A DNA stretch of 64,000 nt from Methanospirillum lacunae (lineage in GTDB: Archaea > Halobacteriota > Methanomicrobia > Methanomicrobiales > Methanospirillaceae): NCBI RefSeq assembly GCF_003173355.1, contig NZ_QGMY01000007.1:248001-312000 (forward strand), given 5' to 3'. Every line of letters begins with the position of its first letter. Positions within the stretch are counted from its first letter, which is position 1. Made by a program: the position numbers and the translations under genes. The notes under the pieces were generated by a model. That model worked only from the letters and a program-made list of their open reading frames with translations, made no database searches and was not told the origin of the DNA. Of the stretch, positions 8,815 to 39,965 are shown in pieces.

Positions 8815-9062
8815 TCTTACTCCTACAATATTTGCCGATACTCTCAGCATCAACTAGTACTCATGGGTGGATACATGATAAATCGTTTCTTATAATGAAC
8901 AACCGATGTCATTGAAACAAGTTATATAGATAAACATTGCGAACCATCGAAGGATATTTCTTCGAAATGAATATGCAAATAGATCCTTGTCACCCGAAAA
9001 AATCCGCTAACATTTTCGTAAAATTGATAGATTAGGATTTACCTTTGAAGTCTTATATGTAT

Positions 9063-34071: not shown

Positions 34072-34432
34072 CATTGTCGCATCGTTCAGGTCTTTTCTCG
34101 GTGTGATTTATCCTACATCCCAGGACAGGTTTGCAAATCATTCAGGTCACGGATTCTTTGGAAAGGGTTTGGATATCACCGATGTTAAGGATTACTCTGC
34201 CTCATCACTTCTGATTCTTGTTCGATAACCCCGTGCCCTGGAAGATTGGCAGTCACAAGTAAGATCATTTTGCGAATAGAGGACAGATCACCCGGTTCTG
34301 GATAATATCAAACTCTCTGATGCGATGAAGGAGGTCTTAAAAATAGTTACACCTTCTTTTAAAAAGCCGTTCAAGTACCAACAGTTGACATGGACCGGGG
34401 AGGGAAGACGTCCATCATTCCTGAACGGTGTG
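34031..34432 (+). pseudogene. Middle part of a broken replication/helicase-type element protein
   Basis: One frame reads through two stops (TAA 34226-34228, TAG 34277-34279) as continuous protein: KRKIDIVASFRSFLGVIYP, NHSGHGFFGKGLDITDVKDY, LEDWQSQVRSF, HPVLDNIKLSDAMKEVL, FKYQQLTWTGEGRRPSFLN. It is followed in a neighbouring frame by DMDRGGKTSIIPERCVWWVAK, then by the frame that starts at 34428. Two stops and a frameshift mean a dead gene. The layout suggests a large mobile-element replication or helicase protein; that family guess is uncertain. Confidence 0.6.
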
Positions 34433-35735
34433 TCTGGTGGGTTGCAAAGGTCCTGAGATCCAGCGAAATCCAGATATGCTGCTTGTTCTGGTGAAGGCTC
34501 ATGCTGTGTTGATGCAGAACCAGCGGGAGAGGAGCGAGTCAGAAAACATGGTCATCATCAACGCAACGGTTGAGGACTTCAGGAGTGCCTGCCGGCTGTA
34601 TACAGCCCTGAACGGGACCGATGGAGGTCAGCAGTCCAAGCTGACCAGAAGAGAGTCTGAACTGGTTGAGGCGATCAGAACCCGGGGACAGGGCGAGATC
34701 ACGATCTCGGAGATGCAACATATTACCGGGTGGTCATACTCGGTGATTCATAAGATGCTACATGGTTCAGTCAGTCGCGGGCACCAGTATTCAGGGCTTC
34801 TTGAGAAGTGTCCTGCCATCTCGGTCTGTGACCGGACACTGGTTACCGACGAGGGAGGACTCAATGCAGCTCACCGGAGGTCAAAGGCGTATGCCTGGGA
34901 TCCCTACGTGTATGACTGCTGGATCCCTGATGATGGCTGCTGGCTTGACGGGTACGGGCCAGGTGATATGAATTGGAAGGATCCATCTGGCGGAGATGCG
35001 AACGGTGACGGAAGGATAACGAAAGATTCCACCATTGTATCCGGGGATGGTAGCGGGTTGGAAGAGGATAATCTTAGTAATAATAAGATTATTAGTACTC
35101 ATAACGGAGAATCTGTAAGTATGAAGGAGGGGATCGGAGAGCGATCCTCTGTATGTACACATATACGTGAACTGTCAGGTTCCGCCAGTGTTGATCAAAG
35201 TACCCAATCTGATGATGCTGATTGCCCGGTTTTAAAATCAGGGGATGATTCTTGCAGCCACGAGATCCGTAATCTTCCCGCAGCTGCCTCTGTTCGTTCG
35301 CCAGGTTCTGAGAATTCCGAAGGATCAGGATCTCTTCCTTTGAGCGGGATCAGGTCAGAGGAGTTTACCAGTATAACCGGGGGATTTGGCACCGGTCCCT
35401 GTGACTGTTGCGGGTCTAAATGGGTGAACTATCAGGAGAGAATGACCTCTGCACGTCTGAAAGAGGCTCCACGGATGAACAGGAAGATCTGCAACAAGTG
35501 CTACGAGAGGGTACTCAAGGCCGAGTCGTTACAGGTCCGGGTTCTTCCCGGTGTTCTGAATCCGGAATTGATGACCCGGGTCAGCAAGGATCTCGGGAAG
35601 TGTGAGGTCTGCGGGAGGCAGAAGGCAACCTGGCAGGATCCGGAAACGAAGACTGTGATATGTGAGATCTGCTACCAGAATCTTCCCGGGATAAGGGAGG
35701 CTGCCGATGAGAAAAACGCTGACTCAGTGGTGTGA
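34428..35735 (+). pseudogene. C-terminal part of the broken element protein (HTH and two zinc knuckles)
   Basis: 435 codons from GTG 34428, but the N-terminal part lies in other frames, so this is a truncated gene that could still be expressed. RNPDMLLVLVKAHAVL starts the recognisable part. LTRRESELVEAIRTRG...ITISEMQHITGWSYSVIHKML near 83-130 is a winged helix. A long Ser/Asp/Gly-rich linker follows. The tail has two zinc sites: CDCCGSKW...ICNKCY and CEVCGRQ...ICEICY. I take it for the DNA-binding end of a plasmid or virus replication protein. Confidence 0.6.
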
Positions 35736-35759: not shown

Positions 35760-36017
35760 GTGAGTGGAAATCTGAACCCTGATTCAGTACATGATGCAGT
35801 CCGGGTGATTGTTGACTGTCAGGGGGAGATTATCGGCGGGGTAGAACCTCATCCGGTGTTTCCATCCGATGAGGGTGACCTTCCTGAGTCGGCCTAGGGA
35901 GTTAAGGTGACGATTCCGGTAGAGGGTCCGGTATATATGGTGGTAGCAGAGCAGGTAGGGAATATGCTGGAGAGGCGGTCCAGGAAAAAGGCGGCAGTGT
36001 TTATGCTTATGGAATAA
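35760..36017 (+). pseudogene. Small remnant after the element protein, cut at the AT-rich junction
   Basis: From GTG 35760 the frame reads MSGNLNPDSVHDAVRVIVD and ends at TAG 35895-35897 after 45 residues. The same frame continues with VTIPVEGPVYMVVAEQVGN and then changes abruptly into AT-rich DNA near 36010. The first part may be a real small gene. The change in base composition marks the left edge of the inserted island. Confidence 0.4.
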
Positions 36018-36073
36018 TTTTACAACATGATCAATCAATATTAAATCAAATTAGTCATATTATTGAATATTAT

Positions 36074-36835
36074 ATGCAAGAAGAAACAGAGAACCAGCCT
36101 TTATTTATCGAGATAGATAAAGAAGGATTTATTAATTCAATTGATCAACATTTTGAAAGTAAAATAATTGAACTTCCATCTTTTTATAATCCAATTCATC
36201 CTATTTTTTTAGGAAAATCACATCTGTTTTCGATATATCAAGATTCGTATCTATGTATTTTGTGTGGTTTGTACCATCCAGGTATCATGTTGATGGGACA
36301 ATTATTTGAGATGATTCTAAAAGAAATCATCTTAATTTATGATGGTGTCAATGATGAAAGACCATTAGAATCGATGATTAAATATGCTAAAAATGAAGAC
36401 AACAAAAAAAGACCCATTAATGGACCTCTGTTACCTCTACCAATATTAGATCTATTTACTAGGGTAAAGGATAATATTCGGAACCCGTATATGCATTTAA
36501 ATTATGCCAAAATATTCGGTGATGAAAAAATCAGAGGTTTTAAATTTCCATCTGGTGCTACTTTCGATGAATTAATTGAAAATAGCCAAAAAGCGTTTGA
36601 TAAATTAAATAAAGGAGAGATTAAACTAGTCGATATTGATCCTGTTGTAGATAAGATTATTGCTGACACTACAAAGCGAGATAATGATGCTAAATGGGCA
36701 ATAGAATGGGCTTGGGAACTATTTCCCTTGTTTGAAATGCTAATTGATGAATATCTAACTGAAGACCAATATGAAAAATATGCCATAGAACATAAGGGTG
36801 ATTATGATACTATTCCATCCATTGAATTAGATTAA
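36074..36835 (+). CDS. HEPN-type protein (RNxxxH motif), putative defence RNase
   Basis: 253 residues, very AT-rich codons. I recognise no named family, but VKDNIRNPYMHLNY holds R136-N137 and H141, the R-N-x-x-x-H signature of catalytic HEPN ribonucleases. It lies after a long helix (GIMLMGQLFEMILKEIIL near 70-87), as in HEPN folds. A second helical part is rich in Trp and Glu (WAIEWAWELFPLFEML). HEPN RNases act in toxin-antitoxin, abortive infection and CRISPR systems by cutting RNA. It faces the minus-strand nuclease group 50 nt away. Family by motif only. Confidence 0.7.
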   Translation: MQEETENQPLFIEIDKEGFINSIDQHFESKIIELPSFYNPIHPIFLGKSHLFSIYQDSYLCILCGLYHPGIMLMGQLFEMILKEIILIYDGVNDERPLESMIKYAKNEDNKKRPINGPLLPLPILDLFTRVKDNIRNPYMHLNYAKIFGDEKIRGFKFPSGATFDELIENSQKAFDKLNKGEIKLVDIDPVVDKIIADTTKRDNDAKWAIEWAWELFPLFEMLIDEYLTEDQYEKYAIEHKGDYDTIPSIELD

Positions 36836-36886
36836 GATTGGAAATAATGTTTTAATTTTTATTATTACTTCATTTATGTGTCTTTA

Positions 36887-37225
36887 TTATAGTAATGGAA
36901 ACAGTTTATGATATTTTTTCCAATACTCATTTAATGCAGTTTCGTAATGAGACATAATAATTATTGCATCACTGCTTAATGGTAGGTTTTCCGCATTCAA
37001 TAGATCTAAGAATTCTGCTGATGGCTGATCCACTAGAAGATCTTTTATTTTTGATAATAGAAAGTTTATTTTAGTTATTTTTAATGGGTTTAACTCGTCT
37101 TTTTGTTTACCTTTGGATAATATCTTTAATTCATTAAAAATTCCATCAAACATACTTTTTAATAAATTATATTTTTCCCAATCAACCTCAGAGGGATAAT
37201 TATTCGTAGAGGTTAGTTTCTTCAT
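36887..37225 (-). CDS. Small AT-rich protein, intact member of a tandem pair
   Basis: 112 residues, mostly helical, with no known domain. The start lies directly after the stop of the broken paralogue at 37226-37612, preceded by GAGG at seven bases. SSDAIIIMSHYETALNEYWKK near 81-101 corresponds to NSDVTIMLSQYLESMERYRC in that paralogue, and ELNPLKITKINFLLSKI to EINIFKLNFINKVL. It is the last gene of the minus-strand group with the 38992 nuclease gene, so it may be an accessory or immunity-type partner; that is inferred from position only. Confidence 0.7.
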   Translation of the reverse strand: MKKLTSTNNYPSEVDWEKYNLLKSMFDGIFNELKILSKGKQKDELNPLKITKINFLLSKIKDLLVDQPSAEFLDLLNAENLPLSSDAIIIMSHYETALNEYWKKYHKLFPLL

Positions 37226-37612
37226 TTATAATCCTCTTAAATGAAATTTTTTGGGGGGGTATGTTTTTACTTTTTTATTATAATCATCGGTTATCCAAAT
37301 CCAGTCATTAGAAAATTTTTTAATATTTTCACATCGATATCTTTCCATACTCTCTAAATATTGAGAGAGCATTATAGTAACATCACTATTTGATGGCAAC
37401 TTATCTATCTCAAACACCTCAAAATCTGAAAATGGCTTATTGTTTTCCGATAATAATGTGTTTGCATTTTATAACACTTTATTAATAAAATTTAATTTAA
37501 ATATATTTATCTCATCGTTTGGTTTTTTGCTTGAAAGCAGTGAAACCTCTTTATAAAAAACTTCCATTTGTTCTTGAGTAGTTATAAAAAGTTCTATTAT
37601 TTCTATGTTCAT
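37226..37612 (-). pseudogene. Paralogue of the 36887-37225 gene, broken by one in-frame TAA
   Basis: Starts at ATG 37612 after GAGGTGAT, ten nt past the upstream gene's stop. It reads MNIEIIELFITTQEQ...LNFINKVL, then TAA (37469-37471), then continues in the same frame as NANTLLSENNKPFSDFEVFEIDK and on to the stop at 37226. Only one codon breaks a frame that otherwise aligns end to end with the 112-residue neighbour. A GTG at 37417 could restart the last 63 residues. TAA is not a pyrrolysine codon, so recoding is unlikely. Confidence 0.7.
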
Positions 37613-37621
37613 ATTATCACC

Positions 37622-38992
37622 TCATGAAGGACATAATCGAGTAAATTCTACATATTTTTTGTTAATTACTTCTATAGGAAATCGTTGTTTATTTTCATAA
37701 ATATTACACATTTGAATAATGTCACTATCAGAAAGTATTAGTATACACTTTCTGTTTCCACCCCATAAATTTATTGTATTTCTTACTATTTTGGGTAAGG
37801 GAGGGTTTCGAGTAACAATAATCCCGAATTTGCCAAATTGTTCACATAAATATCGATTAACTTGATTTATATGCTCAGGTAATAATTCCTTAACATTTTT
37901 TAATTCAAAAACAATTTGACGACAATTATATTCATCATAAAAATATTGCAAAAAAGAAAGAGAACGGTTATTATAAAAGATTAAATCGCGTATTAATATC
38001 CCTGAATCGGTCCTACTTTGTTCTGATGCAAAATCTAAATGGGGATAAAATATTGATGGTAACAACTGACAAATATTGTTTTCGTACTTTTTATCAGCAT
38101 TTCCATCCTTTCCAGTTGGGATTTTTAAAATTGTCGAAATCTTATTTTTAGCTGATAAAATTGGAATTGATGTAAATAAAGGATCATTTGCGCAATCCTT
38201 GGAACTTCTTTCTTTAATTTTTAAATATGTCTGTATTTGATCATAATTATTGCGGTTATAACTAAGTATTTTAATGCGATCGGGTAAGATTTCTCCGGGT
38301 TTAAGGATTTTTTTAGCAAAAAAATTGTCGCAATAATCTTCACTATTTATCCATGGAACAAATCGAAGCCATCTTTTTGGAACTAATAAGATGGGTTCTC
38401 TTGTAGATGGATTTTGTGGAAGGTAGGTCTCTTCATCAATGAAATTATGTGTTTTATAGTCATATACTTTAATTTTAGTTCTATCAATTGGAATATTGTA
38501 CTTATCACACTGTTCTAATGTGAAATCAATTAAAAATGATTTAATAAAATTACAAGCGATGTCACTAACCCTATCTTTGGATATTGACTCAACATATAAC
38601 TGTATTTCTTCAAAGTGGACGAATCCAGATTCTTTAATTTGAGGAATATCTTTGAATAGTGAAAGAATCTCTAACCCTTTCTTCTCACCGATACATGTTC
38701 CTTTTCTTTTTTTTGAATTTCCTAAACCAACCTCATTACATTCAGATGATTGTATTAAAATATCCAAAGCAACTGATTCTTTTCCAGTTGTTACTAATTT
38801 TCCCAAATTATTAAAACAATTAGTAATTGCAGTATGTAATGAATTATCCTGTTGAGATGGAGATTTCCAAAGAAGAAAAGGATCTAAGTATAATGGAATG
38901 TCCTCATCTAAATAAGGAATTGCAAAATCAACTTCATTTTGAGTAACGGGAATATTATAATAATCATTCAATCTTGGTCGAATTATTGCCAT
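37622..38992 (-). CDS. Putative PD-(D/E)XK nuclease, AT-rich island
   Basis: Start ATG 38992 (MAIIRPRLNDYYN) follows GAGATGGATAAT; the longer frame to 39034 adds 14 residues. 456 residues. No family is recalled with certainty. The C-terminal third reads as a restriction-type nuclease core: GILIRDLIFYN near 345, then RQIVFELKNVK near 368 (E-x-K after a strand), then INQVNRYL and GIIVTRNPP. The first part (VDFAIPYLDEDIPLYLDPFLLW) looks like a conserved recognition domain. Together with the HEPN-type gene it suggests a defence locus. The catalytic assignment is by pattern. Confidence 0.65.
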   Translation of the reverse strand: MAIIRPRLNDYYNIPVTQNEVDFAIPYLDEDIPLYLDPFLLWKSPSQQDNSLHTAITNCFNNLGKLVTTGKESVALDILIQSSECNEVGLGNSKKRKGTCIGEKKGLEILSLFKDIPQIKESGFVHFEEIQLYVESISKDRVSDIACNFIKSFLIDFTLEQCDKYNIPIDRTKIKVYDYKTHNFIDEETYLPQNPSTREPILLVPKRWLRFVPWINSEDYCDNFFAKKILKPGEILPDRIKILSYNRNNYDQIQTYLKIKERSSKDCANDPLFTSIPILSAKNKISTILKIPTGKDGNADKKYENNICQLLPSIFYPHLDFASEQSRTDSGILIRDLIFYNNRSLSFLQYFYDEYNCRQIVFELKNVKELLPEHINQVNRYLCEQFGKFGIIVTRNPPLPKIVRNTINLWGGNRKCILILSDSDIIQMCNIYENKQRFPIEVINKKYVEFTRLCPS

Positions 38993-39179
38993 ATTATCCA
39001 TCTCTATGTTAATGCCTATGAATCCCATGAACACAATAATTGATCATTGTTGAAAAAATTATCTCCAAGCCGTCTATCTTTGAAATTTATCAGTATATGA
39101 GATTAAAATATTCATCAAATTGTTATGTGTGTATTAATCAGAATAATTGACCATACAAGAAGGATGTCAATGCTTACAG

Positions 39180-39488
39180 TTATTTTTCTAGTATACTACC
39201 AGATAATGTGCCGTATGTTGGTGTTCCTCCTAATAGTACTTTTTTAAGGTATTTTTCACCTTTTGGAGTTATTCTACATATATTATATGAAATAACATTC
39301 CCTCTTCCATCAAAAATTATATCACCCTCAATATAATTTTCTAATTTCAAATTTTTTACAGATTCTGATATTTGTATCGGATTATAATCTTCAAAAGGAG
39401 GAATATTTGTCATTGGATTGACATTTCCATCTTCAAAATAATCATTAATTAGACATAATACTGATAAGTCACAATACGAACCTCTCAT
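39180..39488 (-). CDS. Small AT-rich protein, possible winged-helix regulator
   Basis: 102 residues from ATG 39488. No named family. LSVLCLINDYFEDG, ISESVKNLKLENYIEGDIIFDG and ICRITPKGEKYLKKV follow the helix-strand order of a winged helix: the last phrase is like the wing and end of MarR/PadR-type domains. It lies upstream of the nuclease gene on the same strand with ~190 nt between. Regulation of the island is a reasonable guess. Confidence 0.6.
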   Translation of the reverse strand: MRGSYCDLSVLCLINDYFEDGNVNPMTNIPPFEDYNPIQISESVKNLKLENYIEGDIIFDGRGNVISYNICRITPKGEKYLKKVLLGGTPTYGTLSGSILEK

Positions 39489-39530
39489 ATATAGGGTAAT
39501 TTTTTTTCAAATAGAAAAAGTTGCGCAACA

Positions 39531-39726
39531 ACTAAAAAAACCAAAGATACTATTTCCGGTATCTCTCGGAGATATAAAATGGACAGAATATTATTCATGC
39601 AAGTTCTTGTACAAGAGCACCGGAGCCAAGACTGTCGGACAGTTTTCAGATTGCACCGTCATCGCAGTTACCACAATTGGGATGACTCCAGGGTACGACA
39701 GTTCAGAGGACTTCATTCAGCTGTAG
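39531..39726 (+). pseudogene. Protein remnant at the right edge of the AT-rich island
   Basis: One frame without a start reads KPKILFPVSLGDIKWTEYYS and FSDCTVIAVTTIGMTPGYD, ending at TAG 39724-39726. Base composition is again close to that of the core genome. The rest of the gap to 39962 has short frames only. It may be the far half of the element interrupted by the island. No family recognised. Confidence 0.4.
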
Positions 39727-39965
39727 GCTAAAATTCCACGGAAGCAATAGCGAAATTTCAATATCATTCATGTACGATTCACTGATTATCATACTATGAA
39801 CTCGATCCAATGATAACCGGCATCCAGATGAGAAGAAATATGAGGTTCAGCAAGAGCGAGTGAGGGGTAATACGGGGGAATATGGATGGAAAACCCGAAT
39901 TTGAGTTGAATATTTTCAGAGAGAGGTAATGATCGCGGCACTTGTACTAAAATTCATCTACCTTG

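Follow-up and report, generated by a model that had tools for sequence, protein, structure and literature searches.

An AT-rich island in a methanogen genome: candidate defence system PDC-M36 and a HEPN-motif gene as probable independent cargo of a mobile-element hotspot

Does an AT-rich island in an archaeal genome hold one defence system with two cutting arms, or two systems that merely share a site? The question is raised by a stretch of 64,000 nucleotides (hereafter the window), part of contig 7 of a 3.74-Mb draft archaeal genome. A sequence-only reading of this DNA had proposed that a HEPN gene and a putative PD-(D/E)XK nuclease form an undescribed defence locus, with RNA- and DNA-cutting arms on opposite strands. 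Our analysis leads to another answer: the island is probably swappable cargo of a defence hotspot, made of two independent modules, the candidate defence system PDC-M36 and an unlisted HEPN-motif protein.

The island extends from 36010 to 39590, without assigned strand, and its edges (36003-36010 on the left, about 39590 on the right) were placed by composition and by a break in homology. The GC profile bears out the abrupt switch to AT-rich DNA that had been noticed: at about 36000-36020, GC content falls to 0.26 from a level of 0.54, and by about 39600 it is back to about 0.5, so that the island stands at 26-33% against about 40-54% outside. Codon use, also said to be unlike that of the neighbours, differs in the same way, with a GC3 of 0.12-0.23 in island genes and 0.36-0.55 in neighbour genes. 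Homology of the left flank to two sister genomes ends at 36003 (G075) and 36009 (G083), with different DNA beyond, and the left edge is therefore sharp and confirmed by comparison; to the right of the island, homology resumes at 39914 and 40627, respectively. At the island ends we found no direct or inverted repeats, and no convincing target-site duplications or terminal repeats. The same site is occupied by other genes in the sister genomes. In G083, a 36-nt direct repeat, 94% identical between its two copies (L093:6688-6723 and 8922-8957), flanks a cargo gene encoding a 679-aa Schlafen/AlbA-like protein; a related pattern was looked for in the window and is absent. In G075, the site contains a gene of 25% GC (L092:3587-4084) for a 166-aa protein with hydrophobic, membrane-like stretches, which has no match in Pfam or PADLOC.

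The 3' end of a mobile-element gene is precisely where the island sits, and a decayed element, into which the island had been supposed to be inserted, is indeed found next to it. This gene, for which 'prim' is a working label only, is the remnant of a 1015-aa mobile-element protein at 34295 to 35735 on the plus strand: tblastn with the intact L092 copy recovers residues 466-533 and 598-1015, the rest being lost. It is followed, directly upstream of the insertion edge, by 'cap', a decayed 100-aa companion gene (35766 to 36002, plus strand; 63% identity by tblastn). The 'prim' protein has no match in Pfam, PHROGs or the PDB. Many partial copies of the remnant are present in the genus, with 26 DNA matches in the source genome.

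What lies downstream of other 'prim' copies? Twelve further match regions, drawn from five genomes belonging to the genus, were considered; a 'prim' match is contained in 11 of the twelve, and the 9 kb downstream were scanned. Core genes of known defence systems follow 'prim' in 5 of these 11 regions: a DRT UG5-nitrilase with a UvrD-like helicase (L100), a type I restriction-modification (RM) system (L101), cas genes of CRISPR I-C (L102), and BREX twice, as BrxB/BrxC (L103) and as BrxA/PglZ/BrxHI (L105). Another region (L097) shows weak SIR2- and Schlafen-like matches. For comparison, 12 segments of 9 kb, chosen arbitrarily in two genomes, yielded nothing but scattered single-gene PADLOC matches at an E-value of 1e-20 (PDC-S01, mad3, an SNF2 helicase and PsyrT). 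The enrichment of defence genes downstream of 'prim' is suggestive rather than proven, because the set of regions is small and was picked after the window had been seen. Two AT-rich genes (22-24% GC; 265 and 607 aa) without a PADLOC match occupy the same kind of hotspot at L096:4563-7177, and are candidates for new defence genes.

The largest protein of the island, 456 aa encoded at 37622 to 38992 on the minus strand, is PDC-M36A of PADLOC-DB, as it matches model PDLC04597 over its full length (positions 1-457 of 457, E 1.3e-227). The nuclease and the small proteins beside it thus belong to an already catalogued candidate, PDC-M36, and the label 'undescribed' does not apply to them. PDCs are the output of a guilt-by-embedding screen, most of them without experimental validation (PMC12988326); that paper refers for their introduction to a preprint (bioRxiv 10.1101/2024.01.29.577857). 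In the collection of papers searched, none names PDC-M36.

M36A comprises an N-terminal domain (residues 15-240) and a C-terminal domain (about 265-456), and the putative PD-(D/E)XK nuclease of the sequence-only reading is well supported for the latter, by a predicted fold that matches and by invariant motif residues. With VIA-align, residues 265-456 match Nt.BspD6I (Z 11.3) and FokI (Z 10.8) over 153-173 residues, the Z-scores to these two nucleases spanning 10.4-11.3; lower matches include LlaBIII, MspJI, RPB5, Shedu, HindIII and Can2. The E-L-K motif that had been read in this protein is E363-L-K365, and E304, D336, E363-x-K365 and Q377xxxY381 are invariant across 10 sequences. The likeness to FokI and Nt.BspD6I (Z about 11) is one of fold over the C-terminal 190 residues, at an identity of 9-10%. 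Confidence in the model is mostly confined to the part beyond about residue 275 and is low in the N-terminal half, in which nothing points to the DNA-recognition part of these enzymes. Unlike these two enzymes, the island has no methyltransferase partner.

The N-terminal domain of M36A also matches proteins that have other C-terminal parts (E 2e-27 to 5e-6). One of them, from a cyanobacterium (L039:1432-3588), joins an M36A-like N-domain to a C-terminal TIR domain (E 4e-17) and is possibly an undescribed TIR effector. Conversely, at L046:274-2046, WD40 repeats are fused to an M36A-like C-terminal nuclease domain. Swappable parts of this kind would suit a protein in which sensor and effector are coupled: the N-terminal domain is probably the part that senses the invader or gates the protein, linked to a FokI-like PD-(D/E)XK nuclease, and a virus or plasmid would trigger M36, leading to DNA cleavage.

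Downstream of M36A, the tandem pair of small proteins that had been described is there as two side-by-side copies of PDC-M36B on the minus strand, but only one is intact. Copy 2 (B2; 36887 to 37225) is a full 112-aa frame (PDLC04600, E 2.5e-28). Copy 1 (B1; 37226 to 37612) is split by a single in-frame TAA at 37469-37471 and is open in one frame on both sides of it, its N-terminal part matching positions 1-47 of PDLC04599 (E 6e-13) and its C-terminal part positions 67-123 (E 4e-19). The M36B partner is present beside M36A, as an intact B2 and a split B1. The two small paralogues would be partners of M36A, most likely regulating or assembling it. The stop points to decay, or else to an error of sequencing or assembly, and on its account this copy of M36 may be impaired or no longer active.

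In the 13 other distinct close-family loci available with flanks, the order is A-B1-B2 in 10 and A-B1 in 3, so that B1 is retained in all 13 and B2 is missing from some. The window resembles these loci in its full-length M36A and in having the B genes directly downstream in the usual order; it differs from them in the interrupted B1 and in the unrelated HEPN gene that converges on the operon. An interrupted copy of a partner that these 13 loci keep, next to a broken 'prim' and 'cap', would be expected if the locus were a relic in decay that at present serves no function. We consider this rather unlikely, as the HEPN gene, M36A and B2 are all full-length open frames.

A further small frame (39180-39488, minus strand, 102 aa) corresponds to the small possible regulator that had been pointed out; it is winged-helix-like, with an HTH_34 match under the cut-off (E 0.011), and it is absent from other M36 loci.

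Beyond the window, relatives of M36A with 52-64% identity occur in Bacillota, cyanobacteria, Acidobacteria and two archaea that share the phylum but not the family, on plasmids (in Leptolyngbya and Methylobacterium), and in five viral or prophage contigs of IMG/VR; annotated phage records contain none. In four divergent loci of cyanobacteria, a B-like gene is located upstream of an M36A relative. In the tree, the M36A of the window groups with the two archaeal sequences, with the Bacillota sequences and with one viral contig (support 97/100), which implies transfer between domains. Several of these loci lie among defence or mobile genes: ThsA and two ThsB genes (Thoeris) are found within 5 kb of M36 at L002, genes for a methyltransferase and for type II restriction lie upstream of it at L073, Cas1 adjoins it at L012, and an integrase-like frame is directly upstream at L074.

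On the other side of the island, convergent with the M36 operon, is the gene at 36074 to 36835 (plus strand), whose 253-aa product contains the R-N-x-x-x-H motif that had been read there, as R136-N-P-Y-M-H141. Shuffles of this protein contain R[ND]xxxH in 1.7% of cases and the looser Rx4-6H in 35%; the motif alone is therefore weak, and its conservation in distant relatives is better evidence. Relatives are found in six other archaeal genomes (the one in G003 is divided between two contigs, and the G253 copy has two stops), and R-x-P-Y-x-H is kept in all five that span the motif (L023, L024, L071, L095 and L122). No relative was found in plasmids or viral contigs.

Is this protein a HEPN RNase? 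The conserved motif is what it shares with known HEPN RNases (DUF4145, Swt1-like, RiboL-PSP and others), whereas no sequence match at the family level links it to them, and its fold is putative. Searches of Pfam, PADLOC, NCBIfam and PHROGs with the protein returned nothing that rose above noise, and Pfam run on all members of the family gave nothing relevant; a single-sequence AlphaFold model reached a pLDDT of 36; and hhalign against DUF4145, HepT-like and Swt1-HEPN sequences did not rise above controls, in a comparison of few sequences and low power. A PDB profile of the family produced a weak match (E 0.001) to the antitoxin RelB of E. coli, along a 47-residue stretch that ends in R-N-P (residues about 98-140, window positions 36365-36490), which we judged to be probably due to chance. 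The motif claimed for this gene thus stands, while the fold was not confirmed by any of these approaches. On balance, we regard a HEPN RNase as a fairly likely identity for the protein, which, when triggered, would most likely cut RNA.

The surroundings of its relatives are diverse. At L024, the relative lies inside a BREX locus, in a series made of PglX, IetA, IetS, dGTPase, HEPN, a TATA-binding protein (TBP), PglZ and BrxL. The TATA-binding-protein gene of this locus (L024:7796-8308; PF00352, E 5e-35) lies between the dGTPase and PglZ genes, and a literature search on such a gene within BREX returned nothing but general treatment. Standalone HEPN genes have been reported as auxiliary genes of BREX loci (PMC12839542), a situation matched by the L024 relative; the HEPN gene of the window, in contrast, accompanies M36 and not BREX. 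Elsewhere, the relative follows SIR2, HsdS and HsdR of a type I RM system (L095) or, at L023, adjoins PDC-M34B and the 'prim' protein already known from the window. Counting the window, known or candidate defence genes are thus present in 4 of 7 contexts, and the remaining three have no nearby defence gene (L071, L122 and L009/L010). The family, a small one, probably accompanies many defence systems; it is itself absent from the PADLOC defence catalogue.

These contexts also bear on a reading in which the HEPN gene is a toxin, an addiction module or a regulator without a role in defence, and the island a chance set of selfish genes. Toxin-antitoxin pairs commonly include HEPN domains, the relative at L071 adjoins a RelBE-like pair, and the one at L122 is surrounded by ordinary genes. 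However, no conserved partner gene was found beside the HEPN relatives, and the defence genes in four of the seven contexts point the other way, so that we hold this reading to be unlikely. We propose, tentatively and with somewhat less than even confidence, that this unlisted HEPN-type RNase family of methanogens may be a portable accessory of many defence systems that are unrelated to one another (BREX, type I RM, PDC-M34 and PDC-M36), travelling in a genus-wide cargo hotspot 3' of an uncharacterised mobile-element protein.

Could the HEPN protein and M36 nevertheless act together, as an RNase and a DNA nuclease of one new system? The two lie side by side within a single AT-rich island, alike in composition and convergent. 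However, they are on opposite strands, and they do not recur together: the HEPN gene is in none of the 20 M36A neighbourhoods fetched besides that of the window, no M36A was seen beside the other HEPN genes, and among nine M36-bearing genomes or records searched, G398 alone has a HEPN relative, weak and distant, located elsewhere in the genome. HEPN relatives, for their part, accompany other systems. For want of such co-occurrence the proposal of a single two-armed system was rejected, and we consider it very improbable. As the HEPN gene is absent from the other M36A neighbourhoods examined, it is best to regard the two modules as cargo items independent of each other. The defence setting that had been supposed is nonetheless found for each of them separately, M36 or HEPN relatives being located beside Thoeris, RM, Cas1, BREX and PDC-M34B genes.

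In terms of content, the island is mostly of a catalogued candidate kind; what is new is the stop in B1, the HEPN family with its travels, and the mobile-element hotspot. The locus is an archaeal example of PDC-M36, a system spread across domains; its predicted nuclease fold and motif set are clear, and it singles out B1 as the M36 partner to examine. It also draws attention to a mobile-element gene of methanogens whose downstream site is filled by differing defence systems, and the site 3' of 'prim' may thereby be usable for finding new archaeal defence genes.
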